Made by a program: the position numbers and the translations under genes
The notes under the pieces: generated by a model
The model's input: only the letters and a program-made list of their open reading frames with translations
Databases searched by the model: none
Told to the model about the DNA's origin: nothing
Origin: Anaerostipes caccae L1-92
Lineage (GTDB): Bacteria > Bacillota > Clostridia > Lachnospirales > Lachnospiraceae
Assembly: GCF_014467075.1 (NCBI RefSeq)
Contig: NZ_AP023027.1
Span: 2,793,501-2,857,500 of the forward strand
Direction: 5' to 3'
DNA: 64,000 nt
Part shown: positions 4,533 through 25,392 of the stretch, piece after piece
How positions within the stretch are numbered: position 1 is the stretch's first letter
How the letters are laid out: each line of letters begins with the position of its first letter

Positions 4533-7076
4533 ATGTCAAGTTTTTCACGTTTTAAAAACCAGATAAATACTTTTACAAATATTATAAATACTGAAAAAAG
4601 CAAGCACAATAAAAATGAGGCTAAAATCCGTCAGGCTGCCTATGTCGAATATTATAATAAGAGCAAAATTAATCCTCATGCTGTTTTATATGAATCTTAT
4701 ATGGGACGGGGAATGATTTGTAATCCTTATGCTATTTTTAAAACTTTTAAAAGCAGATCTGATTTTAATAAATATGATCATTACTGGGTATTTGAAGATA
4801 TGGAAGATAACAAAAAGGTAATTGAAGAATATGCTTCATACGATAATGTTCATTTTATCTCCAGGAGTGATGACGAATATTTAAAACAATTGGCCAGTGC
4901 AAAATATCTTATTAATAACGTTACTTTTCCACCTCTTTATACTCCAAAAGAAGGACAGATTTATGTCAATACCTGGCATGGTATCCCCTTAAAGACACTC
5001 GGTTTTGATTTGCCGGATGGCAATGTTGAAACCCGGAATACCATAAAGAATTTTTTGTCATCAGATTATTTAATTTCTCCAAGTGAGTTCATGACCACAA
5101 TTTATAAGCAGGCGTTTAAGCTGGATGGTATCTATCAAGGAAATATCATCCAGGAAGGACAACCTCGAAATGATAATCTATTTAATACAAACAGAAATGA
5201 CATTATAAATAAACTGATTTCCTATGGAGTAAATGTTGATCCGAACAAAAAGATTATCATGTATGCTCCGACATGGAAAGGCGGGGATTACGGAAATCCT
5301 GATATAGGGTTAGAGGAGTATTTTAATTTCATAGATACTCTGGAATCTAATATAAATACTGATGAATATCAAGTCTTAGTTAAACCGCATCAAATTGTAT
5401 ACAAGCATATTAAAAATAATAAGAACATTACTTCACAGTTTATACCTGCGATCATTGATACAAATGAAATCTTATCGGTAGTTGATATTTTAGTTTCTGA
5501 TTACTCCAGTATCTATTTTGACTTTCTGGCAACTGGGCGCCCTATTTTGTTTTATATACCGGATCTTGAAGAATATCAAAAATACAGAGGTCTTTATCAT
5601 TCTATAGACACTCTGCCTGGCCCAAAGACAAAAATCATGGCAGATATTCCGAAATGGATCAATAATCTTGAGTCTGTTATTGAAACATACAAAAGCATAT
5701 ATCACGAACAAAAAACATCATGCTGTCAATATGATGACGGCAATGTCTGCGGCCGCCTATTAGATATTCTGCTTGAGAACAACAAATCACCGTATCACAT
5801 TATATCTGATATGGTGACAGAAAAGAAAAAAGTAGTCATATTTGGCAGTGATTTAAAACCTAATGGCATTACTCAGTCTTTATTAAGTTTATTAAATATC
5901 ATTGACCATGATAAATTTGACATTACATTATTAACTCTTTTAAACAAAAGTATAAATAATACTCCAATTATTAATTCTGTGAATAAGCAAGTAAGAGTCA
6001 TCACTAAAGTTGCCGGAGCAAACAGCAGTCTGAATGATGATATCCGCTATAAATTGATTATGGAGAAAGGAATAGAAAACAGTCTGTGGGATAAAATTGC
6101 TCCTAAATCGTATTTTCGTCGTGAATTTAAAAGAATTTTTGGTAATTCCAGATTTGACTATGCAATTGATTTTACTGGCTACAGCGCTCACCATGCCACT
6201 TTATTTGCATTTTCTGATATTCCAAAAAAGTATATCTGGCAGCACAATGACCTGATAAAGGACAGATTCCGTAAAGTAAATGGTCAAATGCCTTTAAATA
6301 AAGGACTTAAAGTTGTATTTTCAACTTACCCTTACTATGACAAACTAGTTTCCTGCAGTAAATCAGTCATGGACGTAAACAGAAAGTCTTTATCTACGTC
6401 TAAAATAAAAGATAAATTTACATTTGCAAGAAATACGGTTCACTACGAACGCATTCAGGAAGCACTGATGCAGCCCTCTTTCTTAAAGGTTCAAGGAAAG
6501 GATTATTATATAAAATGTATAAACGAGAATTTGGATAATCAAAAAATCAACATGGATATAATGGAAATGCCTGACTCCGACTGTACTGTTTTTGTGACTA
6601 TGGGCCGCCTTTCCCCTGAAAAAAACCATGCTAACCTTATTACAGCTTTCAAAAAGTTTCATCAGGAATACCAAAATACAAAATTATATATCTTGGGTGC
6701 AGGCCCTCTGATGGATGATTTGACAAATCAGATTGTATCGCTTGGCCTGACGGATTCTGTTGTTCTTACCGGTAACTTAAATAACCCCTTTTCTTTTGTA
6801 AAACAATGTAATTGTTTTATACTGCCGTCGAATTATGAGGGACAGCCAATGGTAATACAAGAAGCCCGGGTTTTGGAAATCCCCATTATACTTTCTGATT
6901 TTTCAACAGGAAAAGATACTTATATTGAGAATGGACAGCTGGTCATCAAGAAGGATTCCGAGAGCATTTATAGTGGTTTCAAAGCCTATATGGAAAATAG
7001 AGTTCCACAATACAGCTTTGACCCCCATGAATATAATTTATCTGTTTATAAAGAATTTGAACAATTATTTGATTAG
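4533..7076 (+). CDS. Fusion of CDP-glycerol glycerophosphotransferase-like and GT4 glycosyltransferase domains
   Basis: An 847-residue protein. AGGAGG at 4523-4528 fixes the start. The first 410 residues form a TagB/TagF-type domain with NTWHG at 146-150, KPH at 284-286 and SDYSSIYFD at 322-330, so the catalytic histidines and the CDP-polyol-binding signature are intact. From about residue 432 (KKVVIFGSDLKPNGI) a GT-B glycosyltransferase begins, with GRLSPEKN at 691-698 and SNYEGQPMVIQEA at 766-778, the nucleotide-sugar contact and E-x7-E regions of family GT4. One polypeptide should therefore add both a polyol phosphate and a sugar, as in a glycosylated teichoic acid-like repeat. The gene stands on the plus strand between two leftward operons and is followed 17 bases later by a degenerate paralogue. 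Domain assignments are firm; the exact substrates are inference. Confidence 0.85.
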   Translation: MSSFSRFKNQINTFTNIINTEKSKHNKNEAKIRQAAYVEYYNKSKINPHAVLYESYMGRGMICNPYAIFKTFKSRSDFNKYDHYWVFEDMEDNKKVIEEYASYDNVHFISRSDDEYLKQLASAKYLINNVTFPPLYTPKEGQIYVNTWHGIPLKTLGFDLPDGNVETRNTIKNFLSSDYLISPSEFMTTIYKQAFKLDGIYQGNIIQEGQPRNDNLFNTNRNDIINKLISYGVNVDPNKKIIMYAPTWKGGDYGNPDIGLEEYFNFIDTLESNINTDEYQVLVKPHQIVYKHIKNNKNITSQFIPAIIDTNEILSVVDILVSDYSSIYFDFLATGRPILFYIPDLEEYQKYRGLYHSIDTLPGPKTKIMADIPKWINNLESVIETYKSIYHEQKTSCCQYDDGNVCGRLLDILLENNKSPYHIISDMVTEKKKVVIFGSDLKPNGITQSLLSLLNIIDHDKFDITLLTLLNKSINNTPIINSVNKQVRVITKVAGANSSLNDDIRYKLIMEKGIENSLWDKIAPKSYFRREFKRIFGNSRFDYAIDFTGYSAHHATLFAFSDIPKKYIWQHNDLIKDRFRKVNGQMPLNKGLKVVFSTYPYYDKLVSCSKSVMDVNRKSLSTSKIKDKFTFARNTVHYERIQEALMQPSFLKVQGKDYYIKCINENLDNQKINMDIMEMPDSDCTVFVTMGRLSPEKNHANLITAFKKFHQEYQNTKLYILGAGPLMDDLTNQIVSLGLTDSVVLTGNLNNPFSFVKQCNCFILPSNYEGQPMVIQEARVLEIPIILSDFSTGKDTYIENGQLVIKKDSESIYSGFKAYMENRVPQYSFDPHEYNLSVYKEFEQLFD

Positions 7077-7093
7077 AATTAATGGAGAGATAT

Positions 7094-9421
7094 ATGGATA
7101 CAATTAAGAAACGTAAATTATCTTATGAACAATACAAAAAAGGTATTGATCAACAGCTGCAGAGTTCTGCTGCTGGTTTAAAAAACACAATTTTTTATTG
7201 CGAATGTTTAAAGAAACCTATTATCAAAAATACTGTCTTCTATGAAGCGGACAGTGGAAGCGGTTTAAAAGGTAAACCTAAATCTATGTTTTTAAATGCA
7301 GTTTCTGATTCCAGTCTTACTCATATATGGAGCATTGAATCTCCTGATCTATTGGAGGAAGACTTAACCTATTATGAACAAACCTGTAATATACGTTTTG
7401 TAGAAAGGTACTCTTCTGAATATTACGAATCTCTTGCTGTCTCACAGTATTTAGTTACTGACGGTTATTTTACTTCAACATTCGTAAAGCGTGAGGAACA
7501 GACTCTAATCTGCACGGGAAATGACTCTGCCTTTACATTTTCAGGATATGACAAAGGTATTAGAAATGTTGATACAGAACAATTTGTGGAACGCCATTAC
7601 CTGCAGGCAGATTATATTCTCTCTTCAAATGAACAATATCAGAAGACTGTGCTGGAGAGTGCCTATAAATTAAAACATATGTATGACGGTAAAATTATCC
7701 AAGGAGTACTGCCCTTTCACCCTTCTCATTCATTGCCTTCTGCGTCCAGGTACAGTACAAACTCAAAAAGTACTGTTTTACTTCTTCCAGCACTGCAGTG
7801 CAAAACAGCGGAAGAAATGTCAGCTTCTGCATCATTTTATGCTGATATTATTGAGCAATTAGATTTCGAAGACATTTACATTTCCGTACCACTTGCGGCA
7901 TATGACATATTTCAATTAAATGATGTGATTAGTCAGTACCTTCTACCTCCTCACATTGACTGCCGGGATCTAAAATATAGATGTGTAATTACAGATGGAA
8001 ATGTTTTATATGAAGATTTTGTTCAGATGAAAACCCCGGTTTATATCTTAAAAAACAGGTTGTTAAATGAACAATTATATACCGATTTATTGACTTATTG
8101 TAATCTAAATCCACAAAGCCCAAAAAAGATTAAAGAAATGGTACAGAATAGCGAAGTAAGTTTTCCATACATTCACACTTTGGATAACTCCATCTGGAGT
8201 ACTGTAAAAGAAAATGCTTCTTCCCCATTCGTAACATCTTTTCACAGCACAAAAAAAAGAATAGCATTTTTCATCGATTTCCTGCAAAACCTGGATCAGC
8301 ATGCTTATTTACACTTACTTCATACTTTAGATTGGATCGATTATAACCAGATTGATGTAACTTTAATCGCATCATCTTTCAAGAAAAATGATAAAGAAGT
8401 AATCTCTGAAATAAATAAAAATGTCAGATATTTAGACTGTTCAGGCCGGCTTCCTTATGATAAAGAGGCATATGCAGCGCACAGATATCTTTCAAAATAT
8501 CTCTACAACATGGATAACTCAACAGATATTGTAAATCAGGATATCTTTGAGCTATACAGGAGAAACAGTCAGCGTATTTGTAATAATATTTCTTTTGATA
8601 CAACAATATTATTTGGATATTTTACTCAAAAGGATTATTTGCTCTTTGAAGGATTTTCTTCAAAGAAAAGATTGTATTTGGGTTATCAGAATCTAGCCAA
8701 AGAAAAGGCAATATGGGTGCAGAACAAAACCACTGCTTTTACATTCACCAACAAAATCCGAATATATTCCTCATTTGACGAACGACTCTATTTTAGTGTT
8801 GGTCTGCACAGGTCAAATACAGAAGAATATACCGATTTGGCTTCAGATTGTTCCGCTGTCCCAATCCTTCCTTCTAAGAAACAGCTGGAAGATACAACCG
8901 ATAATATACGTACAGCTGTGTACGATAATCGGGAATATTTTATGATTCCTTGTGGTAATAAACCATTTAAGACGAAAGAGGTTCTATTGTTGCCAAAGGT
9001 AGACAAGTCTAAACTCTCTTACCTTTATGTAATAAATAATGATGAAAACAGAGAGATATTATACTTTTTAGAAACATTTTTGAATGGGTGTAATCAGAAC
9101 GATTGCCAAATGTTTTTAGTAGATAATTACAATTATTTAGATGATAGCATTTTAACTTTTATTGCAAAACATTCCTTATCTGAAAAAATTGTAATACTTA
9201 AAAATATATTTTTAAATAAATCCTATGCTTCCCAGTTTGATGGTATTGTTAGTTTACATCCTCAGGACCCACTCGACTATAATGTTTTATTATCACAATT
9301 TTTTAGAATTGATACAATAATTGTAGAAGATGATAAATTTCAATTAAAAAAACAACCCATGAAAGACTTATCAGCATTGTCTGAAGTCATTACAAAAGAA
9401 ATCTCAAAATTATTTCTTTAA
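7094..9421 (+). CDS. Degenerate paralogue of the phosphotransferase/GT4 fusion (likely non-catalytic)
   Basis: A 775-residue protein. I take the ATG at 7094, which has GGAGAG at 7084-7089; an in-frame ATG at 7082 has no ribosome binding site. The sequence follows the upstream fusion block by block. VFYEADSGSG matches VLYESYMGRG, HIWSIE matches HYWVFE, YILSSNEQYQKTVLESAYKL matches YLISPSEFMTTIYKQAFKL, and KRIAFFIDFL matches KVVIFGSDL. Each catalytic signature is lost: CTGNDSAF stands where NTWHG is expected, no DYSS motif is found, and neither GRLSPEKN nor the E-x7-E of GT4 remains. The frame is intact over 2.3 kb, so the protein is probably kept for a non-enzymatic role, such as a scaffold or regulatory partner of its neighbour. 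A diverged activity cannot be excluded. Confidence 0.7.
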   Translation: MDTIKKRKLSYEQYKKGIDQQLQSSAAGLKNTIFYCECLKKPIIKNTVFYEADSGSGLKGKPKSMFLNAVSDSSLTHIWSIESPDLLEEDLTYYEQTCNIRFVERYSSEYYESLAVSQYLVTDGYFTSTFVKREEQTLICTGNDSAFTFSGYDKGIRNVDTEQFVERHYLQADYILSSNEQYQKTVLESAYKLKHMYDGKIIQGVLPFHPSHSLPSASRYSTNSKSTVLLLPALQCKTAEEMSASASFYADIIEQLDFEDIYISVPLAAYDIFQLNDVISQYLLPPHIDCRDLKYRCVITDGNVLYEDFVQMKTPVYILKNRLLNEQLYTDLLTYCNLNPQSPKKIKEMVQNSEVSFPYIHTLDNSIWSTVKENASSPFVTSFHSTKKRIAFFIDFLQNLDQHAYLHLLHTLDWIDYNQIDVTLIASSFKKNDKEVISEINKNVRYLDCSGRLPYDKEAYAAHRYLSKYLYNMDNSTDIVNQDIFELYRRNSQRICNNISFDTTILFGYFTQKDYLLFEGFSSKKRLYLGYQNLAKEKAIWVQNKTTAFTFTNKIRIYSSFDERLYFSVGLHRSNTEEYTDLASDCSAVPILPSKKQLEDTTDNIRTAVYDNREYFMIPCGNKPFKTKEVLLLPKVDKSKLSYLYVINNDENREILYFLETFLNGCNQNDCQMFLVDNYNYLDDSILTFIAKHSLSEKIVILKNIFLNKSYASQFDGIVSLHPQDPLDYNVLLSQFFRIDTIIVEDDKFQLKKQPMKDLSALSEVITKEISKLFL

Positions 9422-12626: not shown

Positions 12627-13856
12627 TTATTCCTCCACTTCTTCTAAAGGAAAGAAAAAAATACAATAAATCATAAACATAACCATGGATAATTCCGGAG
12701 TCTGAACTGAGTAATCCATAGAAACTGCAATAAAAAAAGATATCCAGATACTTAGTCTTAAAAAAGAAAATTTTTTCATCAACGAATAGACACAGCTTGC
12801 CAAAAAAAAGCCTAAATAACAGAACCCAACCGGTATCGAAAATCTAAGCATCTCATTTAAAAAAATATTATGACAATTATTTGTTTTCCATGTAGGTGCA
12901 ATTTGTAACCAATCCTTAGGATTTAAAGCAAAACGATTCCCTAATCCTCGTGGATTTTCTTTAATTTTTTCTATTGCCATTTTCCAGATTGGAATTCTGG
13001 AACCTAAATTACTCAGATCTCTTTCTTGAGCTATCCAACTCAAGATCAATTTTGCTGCTCCTAGAGAAGACATCACCAATAATGTAATTTTAGTAAATAG
13101 ATATCTTTTATTAGCAAACAGATAGTCAACAAAATCAGCTGCTAAAATAAATACAGCGCAAACTGTAGAAGTGTTTGTATGAGCAATGAGCAAACAGCAG
13201 AACAACGTTACAAGACTCAGCAGATAGGTAAGCTTATTACGAAACTTCTTTTTATGGACTACAAATAATCCTATAAATAACAGCAGCATACAGGAATACT
13301 GGCATTTATAGAAATAAATCCAGTTAAAACGTTTTTCATAGTAATTAGGATCGATTTTCGTTAAAACAAGTTTAAAATTATATATATGTAAGGACAAATA
13401 ACCTTTTAAATAAAAAGAAACACCTATAACATTAGTTACAATTATTGCCCAAATTGTATATCGAATTATATTTCCTTGTTCAAATATTTCTTTAGTTTTC
13501 ACTAACAAAAGTGTTATTAATAATGCGAAGCTAATTGTTGTGTTCCAACAAGCCCAAGAAAATTGAATAACTTCCAAATTATTTAAATATAAAATATTAT
13601 AACACAGACAAATAGCAAATAACAAAAATCCTCCAAATAAAAATCGAGACATAAACCGTTTATATGGTAAAGCTGTCAATAAAATTATTATTATACCCAG
13701 CAGGGCAAAAAAATTAGTTAATATAAATCTGGAATAATAGCCGTCTAATTCGGGGTTTTTTGCTTTAGTTGTTAAGACCGGTAAAATTAACGCCGAAATT
13801 ACAAAAACTTTTAATATTAAAATAATGATCTTATCTAGTACATTTTTATGCTTCAT
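12627..13856 (-). CDS. O-antigen ligase/polymerase family membrane protein (WaaL/Wzy-like)
   Basis: A 409-residue protein with about eleven hydrophobic segments and one larger external loop. That loop carries SRIPIWKMAIEKIKENP, then GLGNRF and NCHNIFLNEMLRFSI. The pattern R-x-x-x-W...G-x-G followed by H-N-x-x-L marks the WaaL/Wzy superfamily, which transfers lipid-linked sugar chains outside the membrane. A second protein of this class, at 24175-25392, is the better polymerase candidate, so this one may attach finished polymer to the wall or polymerise a different unit. The ATG at 13856 has AGGGGTG upstream. It is the last gene before the GtrB pair. Confidence 0.75.
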   Translation of the reverse strand: MKHKNVLDKIIILILKVFVISALILPVLTTKAKNPELDGYYSRFILTNFFALLGIIIILLTALPYKRFMSRFLFGGFLLFAICLCYNILYLNNLEVIQFSWACWNTTISFALLITLLLVKTKEIFEQGNIIRYTIWAIIVTNVIGVSFYLKGYLSLHIYNFKLVLTKIDPNYYEKRFNWIYFYKCQYSCMLLLFIGLFVVHKKKFRNKLTYLLSLVTLFCCLLIAHTNTSTVCAVFILAADFVDYLFANKRYLFTKITLLVMSSLGAAKLILSWIAQERDLSNLGSRIPIWKMAIEKIKENPRGLGNRFALNPKDWLQIAPTWKTNNCHNIFLNEMLRFSIPVGFCYLGFFLASCVYSLMKKFSFLRLSIWISFFIAVSMDYSVQTPELSMVMFMIYCIFFFPLEEVEE

Positions 13857-14407: not shown

Positions 14408-14839
14408 TTATATGTCACAATTTATTTTATGCAATACTTCTGATAGTAATGTCGATGATACTCCTTCTGTATGTGGTAAAAACACAACATCAACACCTAC
14501 TTGAGCAAATTCATCGATCATTTTATTGTACATATCGCTACCCTTCCAATCTGATCCATGAAACAGAGCATCAAAATGAAGATTTTTCCATGCCTCCATT
14601 TTATTCATATTTTTTTGTGGAACTGCTTCGTCAACACATTTTAGCTCTTGTACTATAGCAATTCTTTCTTCAAATGGAATAATTGGCGTTTTATTCTTGT
14701 AGCTTTTAACAACTTCATCAGTACTCACACCAACAATTAAATAATCACATTGTTCTTTAGCTCTTTTAAGAATATTAAGATGTCCAATGTGAAACATGTC
14801 ATATACTCCTGTTGTATATCCTATTTTATAATTTTTCAT
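14408..14839 (-). CDS. Cytidylyltransferase of the TagD/glycerol-3-phosphate type
   Basis: A 143-residue nucleotidyltransferase. GYTTGVYDMFHIGHLNIL near the N-terminus contains the H-x-G-H motif that binds CTP, and EGVSST near residue 130 is the second family signature. TagD-like enzymes join CTP and a polyol phosphate, usually glycerol 3-phosphate, to give CDP-polyol. The frame is open 41 codons further up, but the start is ATG 14839: GAGGAAGAG precedes it, and homologues begin at this point. It is the last gene of the run SDR, MenD-like, flippase, and it is also the only visible CDP-polyol source for the phosphotransferases at 1-9.4 kb. Whether it uses glycerol phosphate or the product of the neighbouring ThDP and SDR enzymes is open. 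Confidence 0.82.
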   Translation of the reverse strand: MKNYKIGYTTGVYDMFHIGHLNILKRAKEQCDYLIVGVSTDEVVKSYKNKTPIIPFEERIAIVQELKCVDEAVPQKNMNKMEAWKNLHFDALFHGSDWKGSDMYNKMIDEFAQVGVDVVFLPHTEGVSSTLLSEVLHKINCDI

Positions 14840-15070
14840 TTTCTCTTCCTCGTAATAAGTTGTAGTGTTTATAAGCCCTCTCCAGGGACTGATACCATAA
14901 TTTTGGAGATACTGTGAAATGGTATTTCTTCCTTTTAATCCATGTCTATGAAAAGATTCCAAGCCTATTAAATACTATTTATAGAAGTTTTCAAAATTTA
15001 AGCCCAAATTACACTTATGTAATTTAATATAAAAAGCATTATAAGAATTAAATTTTAAAAACAGGTCTAT

Positions 15071-15904
15071 CTAACGGTGATAGGATATTGTACCACTACC
15101 GCCACTTATGTAGTAAGTGTCACCAACAATCATATTTCCCATATCGCTTAACATAAAAATGGCCAAATTTGCAATTTCTTCAGGAGTCGCATATCTGTGA
15201 GATGGCTGGTGTTCAAAATAAAGATTTTTATTATTAACATCCTTAACCATTGAAGTAGCCGTTGGACCTGGAGCAATGGCATTAACAATAATACCATATG
15301 GTAAGAGGACATCAGCCAATCCTTTCGTAATTCCATTAACTGCCCATTTAGATATTTGATATGGAGTTGAAGCAGGTCTTAAAGCAGATGACGAAGAGAC
15401 GTTTAATATATGCCCTTTAATCCCTTTTTCAATCATTTGCTTTGCTACTGCTTGACTGATAAAATAAGTTGCTTTTACATTAATATTCATTACTTTATCG
15501 AATTCCTCGACACTTTCATTAAGGAAGTTTAATTCTCCATGAATACCAGCTGAATTAACAAGAATATCAATGCGATTTTCAGGAAAAATCGAAGTAATCT
15601 CTCTCAATATATTTTCAACATCATCTAAGCTACTTAGATCAAAATTATAACTTTTTGCATTTTCTCCCAACTCCAAAGATAGCTTATTTAATTTAGCTAC
15701 ATTGGTCCCACATAATATAACTTTTGCCCCGCTGGCAACTGCCTGCTTTGCAATTGCAAACCCAATGCCACCAGTCCCACCAGTTATCAAAATCACTTTA
15801 TTCTGAAGAATTTTATTTGTATCTACAGGTTGATAAATAGGTATTATCTCCTTTTGGGAAAACATATTTTTAATCTTTCTAAATAATCTACGAATTAAAT
15901 TCAC
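15071..15904 (-). CDS. Short-chain dehydrogenase/reductase
   Basis: A 277-residue SDR with TGGTGGIG at residues 41-48 (NAD(P) binding), NSAG at 117-120, a serine-rich segment at 170-173 and YQISK at 182-186, so the Ser-Tyr-Lys triad is complete. It starts at GTG 15904, served by GGAGAG. The first 30 residues are an added basic, amphipathic segment (LIRRLFRKIKNMF) not part of the usual SDR fold, which might hold the enzyme at the membrane. It lies 23 bases after the MenD-like gene and 231 bases before the cytidylyltransferase. In this setting I infer that it reduces the carbonyl product of the ThDP enzyme. Substrate and cofactor choice are not determinable here. Confidence 0.82.
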   Translation of the reverse strand: MNLIRRLFRKIKNMFSQKEIIPIYQPVDTNKILQNKVILITGGTGGIGFAIAKQAVASGAKVILCGTNVAKLNKLSLELGENAKSYNFDLSSLDDVENILREITSIFPENRIDILVNSAGIHGELNFLNESVEEFDKVMNINVKATYFISQAVAKQMIEKGIKGHILNVSSSSALRPASTPYQISKWAVNGITKGLADVLLPYGIIVNAIAPGPTATSMVKDVNNKNLYFEHQPSHRYATPEEIANLAIFMLSDMGNMIVGDTYYISGGSGTISYHR

Positions 15905-15927
15905 TGTAACTCTCCCATCATTTTATT

Positions 15928-17661
15928 TCACGGGTTTAATATATTTTTAATTTTATCTTTAACATCACTTGGTAATAGTTTAGTGATACCTTTTTTCAGA
16001 GATACAGATGCTGTAGAATGATTATTTGTATTCGAAGCATAAATATCACGTATTAATTCAGAATCTTCATCAATATCTATAAATATCTCTAGAAATAACG
16101 GTGTTTCTGATTCTTGCGCAAAAATTGAAAGAGCATCTCTAACCTCATCATTGCTGGCAGCTGAAAAGTATTCAAATCCAAGTGATTCTACCCATCCTTT
16201 AGCAGTTCTTTTATTTTGCGCACATACAAATTTATCCATACCAGTATATGGCAACTTAATTTTAAACTCTTCTCCACCGCCATTATTTAATAAAATTATT
16301 CTTACATTATTTTTTATACCTCGAATGCTTATTCCATTCATTCCATAAAAGAAACTCAAATCTCCTATTAAAAGGAAAGACAAGTTTTCTGTCACTAATG
16401 AATGACCGATGAATGTAGCGAGACATCCATCAATTCCTAAAGCACCTAGATTGCTGTAGTACTTAACAGTCTTATTAAAATCAAAAAATTGAGTGATCCT
16501 CGTACTGTTTAAAATAGCTGTATGAAGAATTGAATAATCAGGAATGCTCTTTGAGAGTTCTCTTGCAATACTTAAGCTTGAAAATTTTAAATCACCCAAA
16601 TTTATAGAACTGGCCGCATTATTCCATTTCTTATAATATTCATGATTTGCTTCACTAAAATCAACACACGTTAATTTTTGAAAAAACTCAACAAAATTTC
16701 CTTCAAAGATATTTGTTAAAGAAAAATAAGGATCTCTTACACATCCAGAATCTGAAACAAGCCAATTTTCAATTTTCTTATTATACATTCTCAATATCTC
16801 TTTGAGTTTGTAAGTTGCAACAAAATTTCCTAGGGATATCACTATATCAGGTATTAATTCAGGTCTCTTAAACGCATATTCTGTCTCTGTTATCGGATAA
16901 GTAATTACGCATCCGTTACAGTTCAAATTAGAAACAGCTTCTACTGAGTAAAAGCAATCATACTTTTCAAAAAAAGAATTAAATAATTTTATCTGTGTTT
17001 CTTTTATATTTAAGTTTTCTCCAACAACTATCATAATTTTCTTATTCCTTAAATAACTTGAAAATGTAGAAAAGTCTGTGTTTGAAATAGTATGTCGTTC
17101 AATTATTCTTTGTTTTGGAAGTACCTTCTCACTGCATTCCAAAGATAATGTAATAGGAATGTTGATATGTACTGGACCTGTACCATGATGATTTAATTCT
17201 AATAAAGCTTCATTTACTAAACGATTACAATACCACTCATCCATTTCTGTTTTAACAGCCGGAAGTGCAACCTCTTTTTTAATACAACCTTTGAAAATCC
17301 CTACTTGATCAATTTTTTGAAGTTCTAGTTGATCAAGCAGAGATGACAATCCATCCGATGTAATCGCAACAACCGGTACATTTTGATAAAAAGCTTCTGT
17401 TATTCCAGGCAAATAATTACTTACTGCAGTCCCAGCAGTACATACGCAAGCCACTGGCCTCCTCAACTGCTGTGCCATTCCTAAAGCAACATATGCAGCA
17501 TTTCTTTCATCAACCACTGAATAACAATTGAACTCTTTATCGTATTCAAATGATTTTACAATAGGTGCATTTGAACCACCTGGGGATAATACAACATCTT
17601 TAATTTTATACTCTTTGAGAAGCTTTAAAAGTATTTGAACACTTTTTTCGTTTGAATACAT
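15928..17661 (-). CDS. MenD-like thiamine-diphosphate-dependent enzyme in a polysaccharide locus
   Basis: A 577-residue protein with the full three-domain layout of MenD. It has LSPGGSNAPI at 25-34, VDERNA with Glu52 (the ThDP-activating acid), CTAGTAVSNYLPGITEA at 74-90, GALGIDG at 406-412, and the ThDP motif GDLSFFYGMNG at 433-443 ending in NN at 459-460. MenD itself makes SEPHCHC in menaquinone synthesis and has SPGSR in the first motif; here the arginine is missing (SPGGS). No other men gene is nearby, and the neighbours are a flippase, an SDR and a cytidylyltransferase. A role in surface-glycan precursor synthesis is therefore more likely: decarboxylation of a 2-oxoacid, with or without coupling to an aldehyde. 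The start ATG has AAGGAG upstream. Family is certain; reaction is inference. Confidence 0.8.
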   Translation of the reverse strand: MYSNEKSVQILLKLLKEYKIKDVVLSPGGSNAPIVKSFEYDKEFNCYSVVDERNAAYVALGMAQQLRRPVACVCTAGTAVSNYLPGITEAFYQNVPVVAITSDGLSSLLDQLELQKIDQVGIFKGCIKKEVALPAVKTEMDEWYCNRLVNEALLELNHHGTGPVHINIPITLSLECSEKVLPKQRIIERHTISNTDFSTFSSYLRNKKIMIVVGENLNIKETQIKLFNSFFEKYDCFYSVEAVSNLNCNGCVITYPITETEYAFKRPELIPDIVISLGNFVATYKLKEILRMYNKKIENWLVSDSGCVRDPYFSLTNIFEGNFVEFFQKLTCVDFSEANHEYYKKWNNAASSINLGDLKFSSLSIARELSKSIPDYSILHTAILNSTRITQFFDFNKTVKYYSNLGALGIDGCLATFIGHSLVTENLSFLLIGDLSFFYGMNGISIRGIKNNVRIILLNNGGGEEFKIKLPYTGMDKFVCAQNKRTAKGWVESLGFEYFSAASNDEVRDALSIFAQESETPLFLEIFIDIDEDSELIRDIYASNTNNHSTASVSLKKGITKLLPSDVKDKIKNILNP

Positions 17662-17674
17662 AAAAATCTCCTTT

Positions 17675-19111
17675 TTAACTTTTTAAGTTCTTTTCATAAA
17701 GATCCATTAATTTCTTTCTATTAAAAACTAACAGCATTAAAATGACACTTATCACAATATATCTTGCTATTGAATTTGAATATAATATTAGAATTATAAA
17801 TGAACTTATCAGCAAAAATATAGATATCAGTAAAATAAATTTAATATCATAAACTGGTTTACTCTTATTCTCTCTGAGCACTTTATTCATAAAAATAAAA
17901 TGCATTATGCAGAATAAAATAAAACATACTAGAGTCGTATAAGCAGCTGCAATATACCCAAACAATTGTATGAAAATATAATTAAGAATTACATTTATTG
18001 CAGCACCAAAACATGACGCAAATGTAATATATTTTTTTTGTTCATAAAATAATTCGACATTACTAAAAATAGGATATAAAAACTGAAAAAATGCCGCAGA
18101 TGAGACTATAGGTATAATAGAAAGAGATGGATAATAAGCCTCGGTCATCATTAATCTAAATACATCTGGTATAAAGCACATAAGTAATATACAACCTAAA
18201 GCAACAATAACAACTGCTATATTAACAACTTTTTTTAATTTATCAGTTTTACCATCTCTCATCCTTTTAAAAGTAAACGGAGTAATAACAGCTTCAATTC
18301 CACTTGTAACAAGAGTAATTAACATTGAGAAATTATAGGCAACGCTATACATTGCAGCATCCGAATTGCTGCACATTTTCGATATCATGACCCTATCTGA
18401 CTGATTTAAAATCTGGTAAGATAAATAATGTGGAATCAAAACCATATTAAATGTAAATATATATCTCCAAATTGACTTGTCATAGAATTTCTTACCCTTT
18501 GCCAAATTGCTAATGCCTAACACTAAACCAAAAAAGATTTGTACTCCTAATAAACTAAGAATTCTAGCATCAGCTTTATTCGTAGAATATAGCACTAAAA
18601 AATAACCAATAATGGGATTAATAATAGCCGTAAGCACAGATACTAAAACTACTTTTTTATACGAATAATCAAATCTCATTTTTTGAGACCATACATTAAT
18701 TGGTATTTCAAAGAGAACTTGCAGAAACACTGCCAAAGTAATTATCTGAGTTAATCCAAAAAAACCCGATATCTTTTTAATATTCACTAACGACAGAACC
18801 AAAAAGATTACAGAAATTGTAATACCCAATCCCTGTGCGGCAGCGGCATACTCATCTTTTTTTTCGATATTTTTTGATAGACCGACATTAAAACTGCCTG
18901 TCCATACATTCATTGTAATAGTAATAGTGACGAGAAGAACCCAAGATTGATACAAAGATAAAATTCCATACTCCTCTGTAGACATCATCCTAGTGAATAA
19001 AGGTAACGTTATAAAAGAAATCCCCTTCAGTAATACATTTGAAATAGTAAACCATAATGCCGCTTTAATTGGTTTTGAAAGATTATTATATTTCCTCAGC
19101 AATATATTCAT
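17675..19111 (-). CDS. Oligosaccharide flippase (Wzx-like, MOP superfamily)
   Basis: A 478-residue protein with about fourteen hydrophobic segments. It opens with KAALWFTISNVLLKGISF and MSTEEYGILSLYQSW, the usual entry of Wzx-type flippases that carry undecaprenyl-diphosphate-linked repeat units across the membrane. It is the only Wzx seen in the cluster, so it should serve the repeat unit built by the glycosyltransferases at 19-29 kb. It sits 13 bases downstream of the MenD-like gene in map order and is read in the same direction, between the 495-residue unknown transferase and the MenD-like gene. Confidence 0.87.
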   Translation of the reverse strand: MNILLRKYNNLSKPIKAALWFTISNVLLKGISFITLPLFTRMMSTEEYGILSLYQSWVLLVTITITMNVWTGSFNVGLSKNIEKKDEYAAAAQGLGITISVIFLVLSLVNIKKISGFFGLTQIITLAVFLQVLFEIPINVWSQKMRFDYSYKKVVLVSVLTAIINPIIGYFLVLYSTNKADARILSLLGVQIFFGLVLGISNLAKGKKFYDKSIWRYIFTFNMVLIPHYLSYQILNQSDRVMISKMCSNSDAAMYSVAYNFSMLITLVTSGIEAVITPFTFKRMRDGKTDKLKKVVNIAVVIVALGCILLMCFIPDVFRLMMTEAYYPSLSIIPIVSSAAFFQFLYPIFSNVELFYEQKKYITFASCFGAAINVILNYIFIQLFGYIAAAYTTLVCFILFCIMHFIFMNKVLRENKSKPVYDIKFILLISIFLLISSFIILILYSNSIARYIVISVILMLLVFNRKKLMDLYEKNLKS

Positions 19112-19125
19112 GAAAGAACCTCGAT

Positions 19126-20613
19126 CTATTTATCTGTCTTTGTCATATTATTATAGTTCATTACTGCTTTTAAATAAGTATTTTTGAATTCAACAGTATT
19201 CGCAAGATCGATCATACTTGCTATGTCATCAATTGTACTGCATGAAGGAAATCCTAAATTATTTATTCCAACAAAAAAATTTCTTCTCTTTGTAAGATTG
19301 ACTGAACTAAAAGGTATCCCTTTAAAAGCAGCATCAATCATTGATATAGAATGTTCACCAAATACAAAGTCAGCAGTTGTCAGGTCTTCATCAAGAGTAC
19401 TTCTCGAAAAGGAGAACCGAAATTCCTTTCCATCATCTGGAATAGGCATATTGCTTGATAATGTTAAATTTTCTAATCCTAACCATTCAAAATAATTATG
19501 TACTCTATTTATCGCATTTACACCCACATTTTGTGGATGAATCCAAGTAGGATGGCATCTGTATATAAAATGGATATTAGGAAATCTTCTAGCCATTTGA
19601 ACAAAAGCATCAACCATAATGTCATCATCAGATCTATTTTTTAACGCTGTCCAATCACCGGAACCCGATGCAACTATTAACACATTTTTTACATTCATTG
19701 GAAATTTGGGCTCTGGTAAATATAGTTTATTTCTAAAAGGTATCATCTCATATGGTAACCCCTGATTTTTGAACAATTGAGTCCCTAATATATCCCAACA
19801 AAAGTACTTGACATTATTAGGTTTAAAAAAATAATCTTTATGAGAATAATTTGGGGGAAGATAGCCATCTTGAGCCCATCGAACTTCATATTTATCTTCA
19901 TCTGGTACATTACACTTCCCATGTTCATGCCAAGTTGTCATGTAAGTACAAAACTGCTTCGTTTCAAATTCTCCTTTGTTTAATCTATGACATTCTTCTT
20001 CAGAAGGTTTAAATGGTATGCTCAATCTATAGTCTATTCTATTCATTTTTCCTAAAAAAACATATTTGTGACCTTTATAATACGCTACACTCACTTCATT
20101 AGGTTGATGTATAAAAGTTCTTTTTATTACTAATGATTTTAATTTTCTCAATAAACGTATTTTTTTTAATCTCAGCTTAATCTTTTGTTTAAATGTTAAT
20201 GCTTCGGAGTGATAATAATAATCGCATTCCAGAAACTTAAACCCCATTCTTTCCCATGCTTTTAACTCTATTCCTAAGTCATCAGAAAATATATATTTTT
20301 TCCCTTTCTGAAATTGAGAAACAACTTTTGAAATAACCAAAATATTTTTCTTCTTTTTTATATTTTTTAGATACTCTTCATATGGTATACTACTAGAAGA
20401 ATAAGATTCTAAATCTATTTTCTCCATTTCTGTATCAGACAAAAAATCTGCAAAAGTATAAAAATCAATATTTACGAACAACGATTCCAGGAATTTTCTT
20501 TCATTCTCAAACAAAAAATGAGTAGTAATAATAACATTCTTATCTTCTTTTAAATCAGCATATTTTTTTAAACTATCAAGTTTAACATTTTGTGAAAAAA
20601 CGAAAATAGCCAT
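19126..20613 (-). CDS. Putative GT-B-fold glycosyl/phosphotransferase of unknown type
   Basis: A 495-residue soluble protein not assigned to a family by eye. The C-terminal half contains IHFIYRCHPTWIHP, which recalls the KPHP region of TagF-like enzymes. FGEHSISMIDAAFKGIPF follows, placed like the DYSS...D/A segment in the same fold (acidic/Ser motif before an alpha-helix). The N-terminal half has TTHFLFENERKFLE and a basic stretch KLRLKKIRLLRKLKSL that could touch membrane or lipid-linked acceptor. It lies between the GT2 gene and the flippase, in the same operon as the cytidylyltransferase. I infer that it could be the transferase using the CDP-linked product. Start ATG 20613. Confidence 0.5.
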   Translation of the reverse strand: MAIFVFSQNVKLDSLKKYADLKEDKNVIITTHFLFENERKFLESLFVNIDFYTFADFLSDTEMEKIDLESYSSSSIPYEEYLKNIKKKKNILVISKVVSQFQKGKKYIFSDDLGIELKAWERMGFKFLECDYYYHSEALTFKQKIKLRLKKIRLLRKLKSLVIKRTFIHQPNEVSVAYYKGHKYVFLGKMNRIDYRLSIPFKPSEEECHRLNKGEFETKQFCTYMTTWHEHGKCNVPDEDKYEVRWAQDGYLPPNYSHKDYFFKPNNVKYFCWDILGTQLFKNQGLPYEMIPFRNKLYLPEPKFPMNVKNVLIVASGSGDWTALKNRSDDDIMVDAFVQMARRFPNIHFIYRCHPTWIHPQNVGVNAINRVHNYFEWLGLENLTLSSNMPIPDDGKEFRFSFSRSTLDEDLTTADFVFGEHSISMIDAAFKGIPFSSVNLTKRRNFFVGINNLGFPSCSTIDDIASMIDLANTVEFKNTYLKAVMNYNNMTKTDK

Positions 20614-20616
20614 ATT

Positions 20617-21522
20617 CTACCCCTTCCTTTTTATTTTATTTAAAGATAATTTGAAAACTGCAAAAAATAGTTCTTTTCTGCTATAAAATACTTTTATTGA
20701 ATTTTTTAAACTTGAAAGATCATAGGAACAGGGGTTTTTCCTTATTACAAAATTTAAATATAACCTACTAATAAATATAAGATTATCATTTTTAATAGTT
20801 AAAAATGTAGAAGTTTTAATATCTCCATTTATCAATAATTTCAAAATAATTGCCAAATATTCTACGCAAAAAGCATAAAATAAATCATACTTTGCCTTAG
20901 ATATTCCATTCACCGGCAATTCATTAAAGATCTTTCTATTATCAATAATATAATTTTCTCTTTCTTTCTCTGCGAAAAGAACATCCATATGAGGAAATAA
21001 CTCATTAAAATTAGATATATCAACGGGCAGTTTTTCAAAATCACTTTTCCATATTGTCATGCCTGTGGACCAAGAAGACCAATATGATAAATTACATACA
21101 AATTCATCAAATGTTTTAAACATATTTTCTTTTCGCTCAAGCATCAATACCCCATTAGAATAATAAATAATAGGTTTTTTTTCTTTGTGTCTGTCGATAA
21201 AGTCTATTAGTATTTGTAATGTCCCATCAATCAAAAGTGTGCGGTGATTGACAAATTTAATTAATTCACCGGAAGCTCTTTTATAAGATTCAATTTCATT
21301 ATGAAATGGAAGCACCTTTGTTTCCGCATAAAGGATATTGTCATGCTCAGAGGCATATTTTTTAATTAATCTTTTAAATTCAATATTGTTCCCATTATCA
21401 GTAATTACAACTTCAAATAACGAATTATCACAACCTTGTTTATATATACTTTCTAAAACTGGAAAAACCCATTCGACAACCCCATTTGTCGGCATACACA
21501 AAGATAATAGCGGTTTACTCAT
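20617..21522 (-). CDS. GT2 family glycosyltransferase, atypical metal site
   Basis: A 301-residue protein with the GT2 entry LLSLCMPTNG and FEVVITDNGNN. Where most GT2 enzymes show a D-D-D or D-x-D before the acceptor domain, this one reads VNHRTLLIDG. It may use another acidic residue or be altered in donor binding. The start overlaps the end of the FdtA-like gene by 8 bases and the stop is 3 bases before the next gene, so all are co-translated. The donor is unknown; a role in assembly of the repeat unit is inferred from position. Confidence 0.72.
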   Translation of the reverse strand: MSKPLLSLCMPTNGVVEWVFPVLESIYKQGCDNSLFEVVITDNGNNIEFKRLIKKYASEHDNILYAETKVLPFHNEIESYKRASGELIKFVNHRTLLIDGTLQILIDFIDRHKEKKPIIYYSNGVLMLERKENMFKTFDEFVCNLSYWSSWSTGMTIWKSDFEKLPVDISNFNELFPHMDVLFAEKERENYIIDNRKIFNELPVNGISKAKYDLFYAFCVEYLAIILKLLINGDIKTSTFLTIKNDNLIFISRLYLNFVIRKNPCSYDLSSLKNSIKVFYSRKELFFAVFKLSLNKIKRKG

Positions 21523-21940
21523 TGTTTTCCTCTTCCCCCATGATTTTTAAATAGTCATCATAATCACGTATATATTCTTTACTATTGTAGTGAGTACTTG
21601 CAAGCACCAGTAGTACTGAATCAGACGAGAAATCATACATATCTTTCCAAATCATTGTTGGAATATATACCCCCATCATTGGTTTATTTAATTCAACGAC
21701 AAACTCTTCTTTTCCATCTGTAATTCTGACCTTGCTTTTTCCAGATACATTAATTAGAACAAATTCTGACTCTTTATTTGCATGTTGTCCTCTAACAACC
21801 ATTGAGTCGGATTCGTAAATATAAAATACTCTTTGTATATCAAAAGGTATCCCTTTTCCACCTTCTATAACAACTAACTTTCCTCTTTCGTCACCTAAAT
21901 CATCAAAATGTATTATTGGACATTTTTCTTTTATAGACAT
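21515..21940 (-). CDS. fdtA: dTDP-4-oxo-6-deoxyglucose 3,4-ketoisomerase, FdtA/WxcM-like
   Basis: A 141-residue single-domain cupin. VFYIYESDSMVVRGQHANK matches the FdtA/QdtA family, which moves the keto group of dTDP-4-keto-6-deoxyglucose from C4 to C3. The family motif is commonly R-G-x-H-A-H-K; here the second histidine is asparagine (RGQHANK), which could alter stereochemistry or rate. FdtB- and acetyltransferase-like genes are found at 22357-24138, completing a route to dTDP-3-acetamido-3,6-dideoxy-galactose (Fucp3NAc) or an isomer. Unusually, FdtA and FdtB are separated by a 416-base non-coding gap. A short hairpin overlaps the ribosome binding region. Confidence 0.78.
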   Translation of the reverse strand: MSIKEKCPIIHFDDLGDERGKLVVIEGGKGIPFDIQRVFYIYESDSMVVRGQHANKESEFVLINVSGKSKVRITDGKEEFVVELNKPMMGVYIPTMIWKDMYDFSSDSVLLVLASTHYNSKEYIRDYDDYLKIMGEEENNE

Positions 21941-22356: not shown

Positions 22357-23448
22357 TCAAAACGAATTGAGAGCATCAATTACATAGGATTGTTCTTCGG
22401 TTTTCATCCCATTATACATTGGCATTGAAAGTACTGTATCAGCAAAGTTTTCAGTTATCGGCAATGAACCATGTTTGTATCCAAGATACTGATATGCCTC
22501 TGATAAATGCGGAGGAATTGGATAATGAATAATTGTTCCTATACCCTTTTCATTCAGGTAATTCATCAAATCATCTCGTTTATGACATCGAATTACATAT
22601 TGATGCCATACACAGGTTGCTCCTTTTACGAGTAAAGGCAGACTGAATTTTGAATTTTGAATTTCTGTACTATATCTTGCTGCTATCATATTTTTTTCTT
22701 CTGTTAATTCCTGGATATGAGATAATCGAACTCTTAATAATCCTGCTTGTATTTCATCTAACCTTGAGTTTGCGCCAACAGTCTTGTTATAATAACGTTT
22801 TTCACTTCCATAATTTCTAAAAATCCTAAAATCTTTTGCAAGTTGTTCATCGTTTACCACAACAGCTCCGGCATCTCCAAAAGCACCAAGATTTTTAGAT
22901 GGATAAAAAGAAAAACATCCGACATCACCAAAGGTTCCTGTCATTTTTCCTTCAAAACATGCTCCATGTGCTTGTGCACAATCTTCAACTAGTCTTAAAT
23001 TATGCTTTTGGCATATTTGTACTATTTTATCCATTCTGGAGGCCATCCCATACAGATGCACCACTAAAACTGCTTTTGTCCTTGAAGTAATTTTTTCTTC
23101 TATTTTTTCTGTATCTATTCCAAAACTTTCATCTGGCTCTACAAAAACAGGCGTTGCACCATTGATGGTAATCCCCATTATACTGGCAATATAGGTATTA
23201 CCTTGAACGATCACCTCATCTCCAGCGCCAATACCAAGAATTCTAAAAGCAATCCATAGCGCATCCAAACCACTAGCAAGGCTTACACAATATTTTGCTC
23301 CAGTAAATGCTGCAAACTCTTCCTCAAAAGATTTGACTTCCTTTCCTAACACATACCAGCCAGACCGCAATACCTCTAGAGCCTTAGCTTCAAATTCGTT
23401 TTGATATTTAAAAAATCCTCTGTCCATACGATTAGGCATTATTTCCAT
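22357..23448 (-). CDS. fdtB: PLP-dependent sugar 3-aminotransferase, FdtB-like (DegT/DnrJ/EryC1 family)
   Basis: A 363-residue aminotransferase when started at ATG 23448, with AAAGG about 12 bases upstream. The frame is open to a TTG at 23496, but no ribosome binding site serves it. SFYPSKNLGAFGDAGA carries the PLP lysine, VEDCAQAHGA the Asp that contacts the ring nitrogen, and GANSRLDEIQAGLLRV the usual dimer segment. Such enzymes add an amino group to C3 (or C4) of a dTDP-ketosugar with glutamate as donor. Together with the isomerase and the acetyltransferase it should make dTDP-Fucp3NAc or the related Quip3NAc. dTDP-glucose synthesis genes (rmlA, rmlB) must lie elsewhere. Confidence 0.85.
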   Translation of the reverse strand: MEIMPNRMDRGFFKYQNEFEAKALEVLRSGWYVLGKEVKSFEEEFAAFTGAKYCVSLASGLDALWIAFRILGIGAGDEVIVQGNTYIASIMGITINGATPVFVEPDESFGIDTEKIEEKITSRTKAVLVVHLYGMASRMDKIVQICQKHNLRLVEDCAQAHGACFEGKMTGTFGDVGCFSFYPSKNLGAFGDAGAVVVNDEQLAKDFRIFRNYGSEKRYYNKTVGANSRLDEIQAGLLRVRLSHIQELTEEKNMIAARYSTEIQNSKFSLPLLVKGATCVWHQYVIRCHKRDDLMNYLNEKGIGTIIHYPIPPHLSEAYQYLGYKHGSLPITENFADTVLSMPMYNGMKTEEQSYVIDALNSF

Positions 23449-23508
23449 CAATTTTATAATCCTTTCTCTCAAATCCCTTGACCGATCCTCTATCAAACTG
23501 CAATAATT

Positions 23509-24174: not shown

Positions 24175-25392
24175 TTACATCTCTTTCTCATAGACTGCAA
24201 ACAACATAAAAAATAATAATGCTGTTGGATTAAAAAAACTGGATTCGGCAATAGACGTAATTAACAAGTAAACGATAGTCATTAACATAGCAAATCCTGC
24301 ATTTTTGTTTAATCTCATTTTTCTCATTGATAATTTTAAAAAATATATGATGATGAATAAAAATAAAATTAAGCCCAGAATCCCAAATTGAGAAAAAATT
24401 GTTGGCCAAAATAAATCTGATAAAAATGCGCTGTAGGAAGGGCTCATCCCCCAATTATACGGATACTTCAATGCAACATACAATGGTGAATAATAATTAA
24501 CTGCAATAGAAGATCCAAAAGTAGCATATCCAGTACCAAATGGAAAATGGCTTAACATTAATTTTAGGCCATCTTTAAATAATATAAGTCTGGGGGAATA
24601 TAAATCTATAGAACCAAAATAAGCTGTCAATTGATCCCTGGCAATGAACGCCGTTCCTATTATACCTAAAAAATATGTAAAGTAATAATTTTTACTTTTA
24701 ACATATTTTATAATAATATAGACAAACCAATAAACTGCAAAGAATCCCAGCGCTTTTCCTCTCAGCGTTGCAACCCCAAAAAACGTAGCCATAAGCATAT
24801 ATTTCAAATTCTGTCCATTTCTGTTATTATAGCCCAAATATATCAATAAAACAGCAGCACTTGAAGCTAAATAGGTTGCATGAGGAAACATTAACTGCAG
24901 GCCGTACATAAAGTAACGATAATCACTTTTAGGGAAGAAGGGAGACAATACAAGATCATGCAATGTAAGCAAAAACAATATCAGGGTTATGAATTTAACA
25001 ATTCTTGTCAGCCCTCCAGAAATGTTTTTATTCTTTTTTGACGCATAAATTATTACTGCTAAATATCCAATTAAAAACCTAGATGTCAAAAGAAATGCGT
25101 CGATAAGCATAGGAATTACTGGTTGATAGTGGTATATGCAACTGGATATAAACCCAATCAGTAAGAAACCAAAGGCGATGCATAATACAAAACTCTTTTT
25201 TTTGAATACTATCCTATAATTACAAATAATATAACATAATAGGATAATAGTAATAAGTTCATCTACATGTTTAAAAAAGAGGTTTAGAAGAATGTTATCT
25301 GAAATCGAGTCTAAACAAGTAATAAACAATAATAAGACAAACAAAATTGCTGTATTAAATTTTCTTAAATTTAATGTCGATGAAACTTTCAT
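24175..25392 (-). CDS. Polysaccharide polymerase candidate (Wzy-like membrane protein)
   Basis: A 405-residue, roughly eleven-segment membrane protein without enzyme motifs outside its loops. A long external loop in the second half contains DLYSPRLILFKDGLKLM and FPFGTGYATFGSS. The arginine and the G-x-G-x-x-x-F pattern match O-antigen polymerase/ligase proteins. It lies inside the glycosyltransferase run and near the initiating transferase, so it is the main candidate for joining repeat units outside the membrane after the flippase. The other Wzy/WaaL-like gene is at 12627-13856. Confidence 0.75.
   Translation of the reverse strand: MKVSSTLNLRKFNTAILFVLLLFITCLDSISDNILLNLFFKHVDELITIILLCYIICNYRIVFKKKSFVLCIAFGFLLIGFISSCIYHYQPVIPMLIDAFLLTSRFLIGYLAVIIYASKKNKNISGGLTRIVKFITLILFLLTLHDLVLSPFFPKSDYRYFMYGLQLMFPHATYLASSAAVLLIYLGYNNRNGQNLKYMLMATFFGVATLRGKALGFFAVYWFVYIIIKYVKSKNYYFTYFLGIIGTAFIARDQLTAYFGSIDLYSPRLILFKDGLKLMLSHFPFGTGYATFGSSIAVNYYSPLYVALKYPYNWGMSPSYSAFLSDLFWPTIFSQFGILGLILFLFIIIYFLKLSMRKMRLNKNAGFAMLMTIVYLLITSIAESSFFNPTALLFFMLFAVYEKEM

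Follow-up and report, generated by a model that had tools for sequence, protein, structure and literature searches.

A MenD-like thiamine diphosphate enzyme and its probable partner reductase in surface-glycan loci, beside a cytidylyltransferase that appears to belong to a separate module in Anaerostipes caccae L1-92

MenD is the 2-succinyl-5-enolpyruvyl-6-hydroxy-3-cyclohexene-1-carboxylate (SEPHCHC) synthase of the vitamin K (menaquinone) pathway. In a mutagenesis study of the Bacillus subtilis enzyme, Arg32 and Arg106 are assigned to isochorismate, Arg428 mainly to 2-oxoglutarate, and Arg409 to both substrates, while Ile489 and Phe490 serve isochorismate binding and cofactor placing (PMC2914249). 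YerE decarboxylates pyruvate and transfers the activated acetaldehyde to a cytidine diphosphate (CDP) sugar in yersiniose synthesis (PMC12247030), and Pau7, a ketoreductase of the aldo-keto reductase (AKR) family, reduces such a branch in paulomycin (PMC4753412). Here we analyze a 64,000-nucleotide stretch of the genome of Anaerostipes caccae L1-92 (the window; G000:C1:2793501-2857500 of a 3.59 Mb, one-contig genome) in which five same-strand open reading frames (ORFs) at 14408-20613, on the minus strand, encode a MenD-like thiamine diphosphate (ThDP) enzyme, a short-chain dehydrogenase/reductase (SDR), a cytidylyltransferase-family enzyme, a Wzx-type flippase, and a 495-residue protein. The run is part of a surface-polysaccharide locus in which flippase, FdtA, DegT, WbsX-type transferase, Wzy-like, and Wzz genes are found. 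We give an even chance to the reading that this region joins two modules, one with a MenD-derived carboligase and a ketone reductase that would build a branched or extended unit of the glycan, and a separate one for a nucleotide-activated alcohol.

The MenD-like protein resembles MenD in its ThDP motifs, its catalytic Glu, its equivalent of Arg409, and its best structural matches. It differs in lying outside a men operon, in the replacement of several substrate-binding residues, and in its score against the menD equivalog TIGR00173 (236.2 bits, or 237 in the genome scan), which falls below the cut-off of 244.2. The other four genome matches to this model reached at most 58 bits, and the scan of the genome with it gave no second MenD-like gene; on Pfam, only TPP_enzyme_N matched. 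The catalytic Glu (DER) and the metal-binding ThDP motif (GDLS...NN) are intact, whereas SPGSR reads SPGGS, and Glu52, Asp434, and Asn460 are kept. Residue positions were matched by alignment to eight reference MenD sequences from loci with other men-type genes. Arg388 corresponds to B. subtilis MenD Arg409 and is thus conserved; the isochorismate residues Arg32 and Arg106 are replaced by Ser30 and Gly104, the 2-oxoglutarate residue Arg428 by Leu405, and Ile489/Phe490 appear as Glu465/Phe466. Because Arg32, Arg106, Arg428, and Ile489 are replaced, whereas all eight references keep the full set (Arg32, Arg106, Arg409, Arg428, and Ile489), the window protein, a ThDP enzyme of MenD descent, should not make SEPHCHC. 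The best MenB match in the genome scored 172 bits against a cut-off of 342.7 (MenC, MenE, and MenF were not searched), in line with the sequence-only reading of this DNA, which had doubted a menaquinone role. For an AlphaFold2 model (mean predicted local distance difference test [pLDDT] score 84.3), each of the 50 listed PDB matches was a MenD structure.

The window protein is part of a clade outside men operons. Relatives occur in 13 of the 200 genomes of a family sample (own genome included, at 180 bits or more; the others among the matches listed reached at most 52 bits), in 2 of 11 genomes at genus level, in 15 of 392 at order level (one of these, G833, with an isochorismate-synthase-type neighbor), in 10 of 391 at class level, and in 6 of 398 at phylum level, three of them in men-type loci; these samples overlap one another. 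Of five records from a plasmid collection, one is a glycan locus of Ruminococcus albus and the other four are men-type loci of Bacteroidales, two of them annotated and two assigned by gene cluster; an additional contig scan yielded one locus, L001 (a Flavobacteriales metagenome-assembled genome, 30% identity), with an isochorismate-synthase-type neighbor by gene cluster. No MenD-like locus was found in a viral collection. We examined 35 loci with a MenD-like gene of the clade, window included, several of which end at a contig boundary; the G776 match, on a contig barely longer than the match, is not among them, and the L123 MenD fragment was left out of the reference set. A glycan gene or cassette partner was recognized in 34 of the 35. 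In the tree, 39 rows (33 from loci, the window, and five metagenome proteins) form one clade (support 100/99) whose sister group is MenD of the Bacteroides type, which in two cases comes from an annotated men operon. Residues were tabulated for 34 of the 35 loci, excluding the truncated L049 sequence: the catalytic Glu is kept in 34/34 and Arg409 in 33/34, Arg428 is kept in 5/34 (lost in 29), Arg106 in 15/34, and Arg32 in 14/34, and the Ile489 position is Glu in 24/34. Tandem MenD-like ORFs, one copy being split or shortened, were seen at L039:5106-8663, L041:6807-10195, and L120:7621-10172.

The MenD-derived enzyme and a reductase form a pair whose conservation across glycan loci is supported by the neighborhoods. 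Using profiles seeded from these loci, we detected a reductase in 28 of the 35, within two genes of MenD in 27. Classical SDRs were present in 16 loci and extended SDRs in 12, with both in three; of three further loci, one held a MocA-type protein and two an aldo-keto reductase, free-standing in one and fused in the other. Since unrelated reductases fill the same role across loci, we argue that reduction of the product matters. The SDR of the window carries the Rossmann Gly motif TGGTGGIG and Y-x-x-x-K and matches adh_short, which identify it as a classical SDR. Its relatives (49-56% identity) lie at most two genes from MenD-like genes in L041, L116, L118, L139, and L151, and at E values up to 1e-45 they occur in four other genomes among the 200, standing beside MenD in G018 and G130.

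A second recurrent partner is a homologue of PF04230 (polysaccharide pyruvyl transferase), found in 30 of the 35 loci (23 within two genes) versus 2 of 14 control glycan loci (Fisher p = 4.7e-6, the loci not being independent). The controls were chosen by cytidylyltransferase, with L095, a TagD locus, left out. Because the first profiles derived from MenD loci, neighbors were recounted with Pfam. Among 125 proteins within two genes of MenD, PF04230 appeared 22 times, adh_short 15 times, and Epimerase 8 times; in the control set of 122 proteins lying up to five genes from the cytidylyltransferase, the 25 families that head the list include neither PF04230 nor adh_short, a count resting on 13 loci because the L088 cytidylyltransferase was lost in ORF picking. 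ORFs of at least 90 aa were considered throughout, and of at least 100 aa in these Pfam counts. In the same-genus genome G209 (L139), PF04230, MenD-like, and 56%-identical SDR genes follow in a row, and the stretch holds no cytidylyltransferase. Natural fusions join the same partners: L148 encodes AKR::4Fe-4S::MenD (1046 aa) beside an FrhB::PF04230 fusion, and L044 encodes PF04230::MenD (1093 aa). The former neighbor, at L148:1714-4218 (-), fuses an FrhB-type, F420-hydrogenase-beta-like domain with 4Fe-4S motifs to PF04230, and FrhB-like genes also adjoin the cytidylyltransferase in L084 and L137.

In the window cytidylyltransferase, the HxGH nucleotidyltransferase motif reads F-H-I-G-H. Translation probably begins at the ATG at 14839, preceded by GAGGAAGAG, which gives 143 aa; most relatives use the equivalent start, and an upstream TTG would give 184 aa. 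The protein shares the HxGH family and clear sequence similarity with TagD, but RTEGISTT reads HTEGVSST, and the match to TIGR01518 (glycerol-3-phosphate cytidylyltransferase) reached 80.9 bits against a cut-off of 165.4. TIGR02199, an HldE-type adenylyltransferase domain, was the best curated match (87.5 bits against a cut-off of 181.5); the curated equivalog matches comprise CDP-forming and ADP-forming kinds, all below cut-off. The best PDB match was an ethanolamine-phosphate cytidylyltransferase. We take cytidine triphosphate (CTP) as the putative activating nucleotide. Ten other genomes (145 searched, own included) carry relatives of 43-71% identity with E values of 1e-30 or better, and in the control loci the stretch around such a relative also held a PF04464-type transferase in 5 of 14 and LicD in 3 of 14. 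Two distinct cytidylyltransferases of the window family stand in tandem at L084:9234-10216 (+), 57% and 69% identical to that of the window. Two cytidylyltransferase loci, L083:12282-16308 (-) and L090:11968-14594 (+), hold a ThDP enzyme of a second kind, with all three Pfam TPP domains, together with an HMGL-like protein. A further cytidylyltransferase-family gene lies just beyond the window (G000:C1:2791429-2791794), 40% identical to the window copy.

The 495-residue protein is probably the transferase of the cytidylyltransferase module, as judged from its predicted fold and its neighbors. It has a predicted GT-B (glycosyltransferase B) fold with a mean pLDDT of 88.2. No Pfam family matched it at E values up to 0.001, nor four relatives at up to 0.01; its profile match to PF04464 is weak, and a profile comparison gave no close relation to PF04230 (hhalign 0.5%). 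Profile searches with the 495-residue and PF04230 alignments against PDB sequences returned nothing useful. Among structures, uridine diphosphate N-acetylglucosamine (UDP-GlcNAc) 2-epimerases tied with TagF, so the predicted fold does not separate them. The protein differs from TagF and the PF04464 CDP-glycerol glycerophosphotransferases, both in having no Pfam match and in its equally good scores against UDP-GlcNAc 2-epimerases. It occurs in 4 of the 200 family genomes, and the cytidylyltransferase, FdtA, and DegT share its locus in all four. In the three outside the window (G022, G180, and G112), neither MenD nor a matching SDR is in the stretch with it. The order in G180 is transferase-Wzx-cytidylyltransferase, and in G022 transferase-Wzx-cytidylyltransferase-cytidylyltransferase, the second cytidylyltransferase taking the place that MenD and SDR have in the window order, transferase-Wzx-MenD-SDR-cytidylyltransferase. 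Because the loci of these three genomes hold the cytidylyltransferase and the 495-residue protein but neither MenD nor a matching SDR, this module runs without those two; conversely, 32 of the 35 MenD-like loci have no cytidylyltransferase of this family in the stretch. The cytidylyltransferase therefore appears to belong to a module separate from MenD and SDR.

We propose the following scheme for the two modules. In the first, the MenD-like enzyme would decarboxylate, on ThDP, a 2-oxo acid other than 2-oxoglutarate, and the acyl carbanion would pass to a glycan precursor, such as a sugar nucleotide, at its carbonyl or activated double bond. Reduction of the resulting ketone by the SDR would then give a C-branched or chain-extended unit. 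This module would parallel YerE and the ketoreductase of yersiniose-type sugars, but on a MenD scaffold. In the second, the cytidylyltransferase would make a CDP-alcohol (CDP-glycerol or a similar CDP-alditol), from which the 495-residue GT-B protein may transfer the unit to the repeat unit, independently of the first module. The likeness to YerE/ErwE-type carboligases with a ketoreductase would lie in decarboxylation, C-C bond formation to a sugar ketone, later ketone reduction, and the surface-glycan setting (PMC12247030, PMC4753412). Unlike YerE, the window protein has MenD as its best curated and structural matches, and the likeness is one of proposed logic. The accessible text of the branched-sugar review contains no occurrence of "MenD" (PMC12247030), and a literature search of open-licence papers, which is weak evidence, found no title or abstract opening that describes a MenD-like enzyme in glycan loci. 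The MenD/reductase pair would thus be a variant of known ThDP-plus-ketoreductase chemistry that is unreported in the literature searched.

Several observations weigh against this scheme. The reductase and PF04230 profiles were seeded from the same, related loci, and their counts are not independent. No reductase was found by profile in 7 of the 35 loci; in three of these (L048, L049, and L154) the contig breaks off next to MenD, which is not so in the other four (L044, L045, L113, and L117). L154 has no recognized glycan gene, and the SDR relatives in G177 and G029 (G029:C16) are not beside MenD. All four Args are kept in L038, L042, L113, L114, and L148, and because five members retain them, a dicarboxylate donor may persist in some of the clade; these five group together apart from the remaining members, with weak support (86/58). 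In L044, the fusion protein forms a long branch and no longer has Arg409. The window's own MenD subclade holds no other locus-derived member, only metagenome proteins without context, and the model superposes poorly over the whole chain on MenD structures (TMq 0.39-0.54, root-mean-square deviation 17.6-20.0). PF04230, a frequent and once fused neighbor of MenD-like genes elsewhere, is absent from the window locus and from the whole genome (0 matches). Because the genome has no PF04230 although 30 of the 35 loci have one, the window is atypical among MenD-like loci.

An unlikely, though not negligible, alternative to the carboligase scheme is that the MenD-like protein is a simple 2-oxo-acid decarboxylase whose free aldehyde product the SDR converts by reduction into an alcohol or hydroxy acid, which is attached as a substituent. 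The pairing of a ThDP enzyme with a reductase would suit this, as would the loss of the acceptor-binding Args from the window protein. However, 33 of 34 members retain Arg409, a residue in contact with both substrates of MenD (PMC2914249), and a second, polar substrate is therefore likely. Moreover, no activating ligase or acyl carrier was found among the 20 Pfam-scanned proteins of the window, which has more.

The sequence-only reading had listed the five genes in one direction, with a putative GT-B transferase, a flippase, a MenD-like enzyme with intact ThDP motifs and no Arg in SPGSR, an SDR, and an H-x-G-H enzyme, all of which the ORFs, family matches, motifs, and predicted fold bear out. 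It had further placed three of them in series, the MenD-like enzyme coupling or decarboxylating a 2-oxo acid, the SDR reducing the product, and the cytidylyltransferase making a CDP-X that the 495-residue protein transfers; with an acceptor that is already phosphorylated (e.g., glyceraldehyde 3-phosphate), no kinase would be needed. We consider this series decidedly improbable. The gene order in the window agrees with it, and so does a metagenome comparison in which four MenD-like/495-residue cluster pairs (best 120 proteins each) match exactly in contig size, with 0.53 expected per offset in off-by-1-to-40 controls. Because the two genes appear to share these four contigs, their combination probably recurs beyond the window. 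MenD/cytidylyltransferase clusters gave two exact matches, with 0.24 expected, corresponding to one or two shared contigs. As fusions demonstrate, members of this cytidylyltransferase family can be associated with a reductase: an SDR-like domain is joined to a window-family cytidylyltransferase at L094:9053-10231 (+) (393 aa), and cytidylyltransferase::MocA fusions at L112:5412-6755 (-) and L129:1334-2605 (+) lie in loci with MenD-like genes. These MocA fusions adjoin a class-V aminotransferase, with LicD in the locus, and L129 is the Ruminococcus albus plasmid pRUMAL01. The L094 SDR domain, however, is only 27% identical to the window SDR over 114 residues, and MenD-linked members fall in at least three places on the 495-residue tree, one with the unlinked L137 (in a tree made by a quick method, with many weak forks and MenD status known for few rows). 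The co-occurrence proposed for neighboring genes thus stood for MenD with a reductase and for the cytidylyltransferase with the 495-residue protein, but failed for the three as one series; of the 35 MenD-like loci, only the window, L112, and L129 show a cytidylyltransferase of this family in the stretch. Given this and the loss of synteny in G022, G180, and G112, where MenD and SDR are missing beside the other two genes in three of three genomes, we rejected the trio as a single unit, its modules being separable in relatives.

We regard as a long shot the further reading that in Clostridia the MenD-derived enzyme, the reductase, and the PF04230 protein form a glycan-tailoring cassette for C-C-extended acidic sugar ethers. 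The PF04230 protein would equip a sugar with a pyruvyl-bearing group, for instance enolpyruvyl. The MenD-like enzyme would add the acyl carbanion to the activated double bond of this group in a Stetter-type reaction, as MenD does on isochorismate; the conserved Arg409 would bind the carboxylate, and the reductase would then reduce the ketone. In the window, which has no PF04230, this part would have to fall to another protein or acceptor.

The aminoethylphosphonate route has a thematic likeness to a phosphonate pathway in which the MenD-like protein acts as a phosphonopyruvate decarboxylase, a route at which the sequence-only reading had hinted while reporting no phosphoenolpyruvate (PEP) mutase in the window; that negative extends to the one-contig genome (0 matches), and the route is largely refuted and scarcely credible. 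It is equally hard to credit that the protein is a true SEPHCHC synthase, acting in the synthesis of menaquinone or a related naphthoquinone, and we rejected this on the TIGR00173 score, the MenB score, the lost Args, and the glycan-locus setting, even though menD is the closest curated family and MenD structures are the matches listed.

The features of the locus are collected in Table 1. The 231-bp gap between SDR and cytidylyltransferase was searched for a terminator-like site, and none was found; one weak promoter-like match is present (9/12, 14948-14919), shuffled versions of the region containing more such matches than the region itself, and no scar of a lost gene was seen in the gap upstream of the cytidylyltransferase. 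Teichoic-acid-type genes adjoin the polysaccharide locus, with two PF04464-matching proteins at 4533-9421 (+) plus an ABC-2 transporter gene. Two Wzy/ligase-like membrane proteins are encoded at 12627-13856 (-) and 24175-25392 (-), the second a weak match below cut-off.

Table 1. Features of the five-gene run and its neighbors; positions are those of the window.
Feature	Position	Strand	Basis
Cytidylyltransferase-family enzyme, stand-alone	ORF 14408-14962, likely gene 14408..14839	-	CTP_transf_like, E 1.9e-20
Gap between SDR and cytidylyltransferase, 231 bp	14840..15070	-	
Classical SDR, 277 aa, probable partner reductase	15071..15904	-	adh_short, E 4.6e-49
MenD-like ThDP enzyme, 577 aa	15928..17661	-	Nearest curated family menD (TIGR00173)
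Wzx-type flippase	17675..19111	-	PF01943, E 1.3e-16
495-residue GT-B-fold protein, probable transferase	19126..20613	-	Predicted fold; no Pfam family
FdtA-type 3,4-ketoisomerase homologue	21515..21940	-	Present in 4/4 loci found with the 495-residue protein
DegT-family sugar aminotransferase	22357..23496	-	Present in 4/4 loci found with the 495-residue protein

Because some database records of MenD-like proteins carry the names of menaquinone enzymes, owners of such genes can be credited with vitamin K chemistry that they may lack. The recurring set of MenD-like enzyme, reductase, and PF04230 protein, with its natural fusions, suggests that surface-glycan synthesis includes a C-C bond-forming step not described so far; as a defined enzyme set, it may find use in biocatalysis. 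Were the cassette reading true, the resulting C-C-extended acidic sugar ethers would form a new class. The predicted consequence of the carboligase-reductase scheme is that polysaccharides of MenD-like loci would contain a branched or extended unit.

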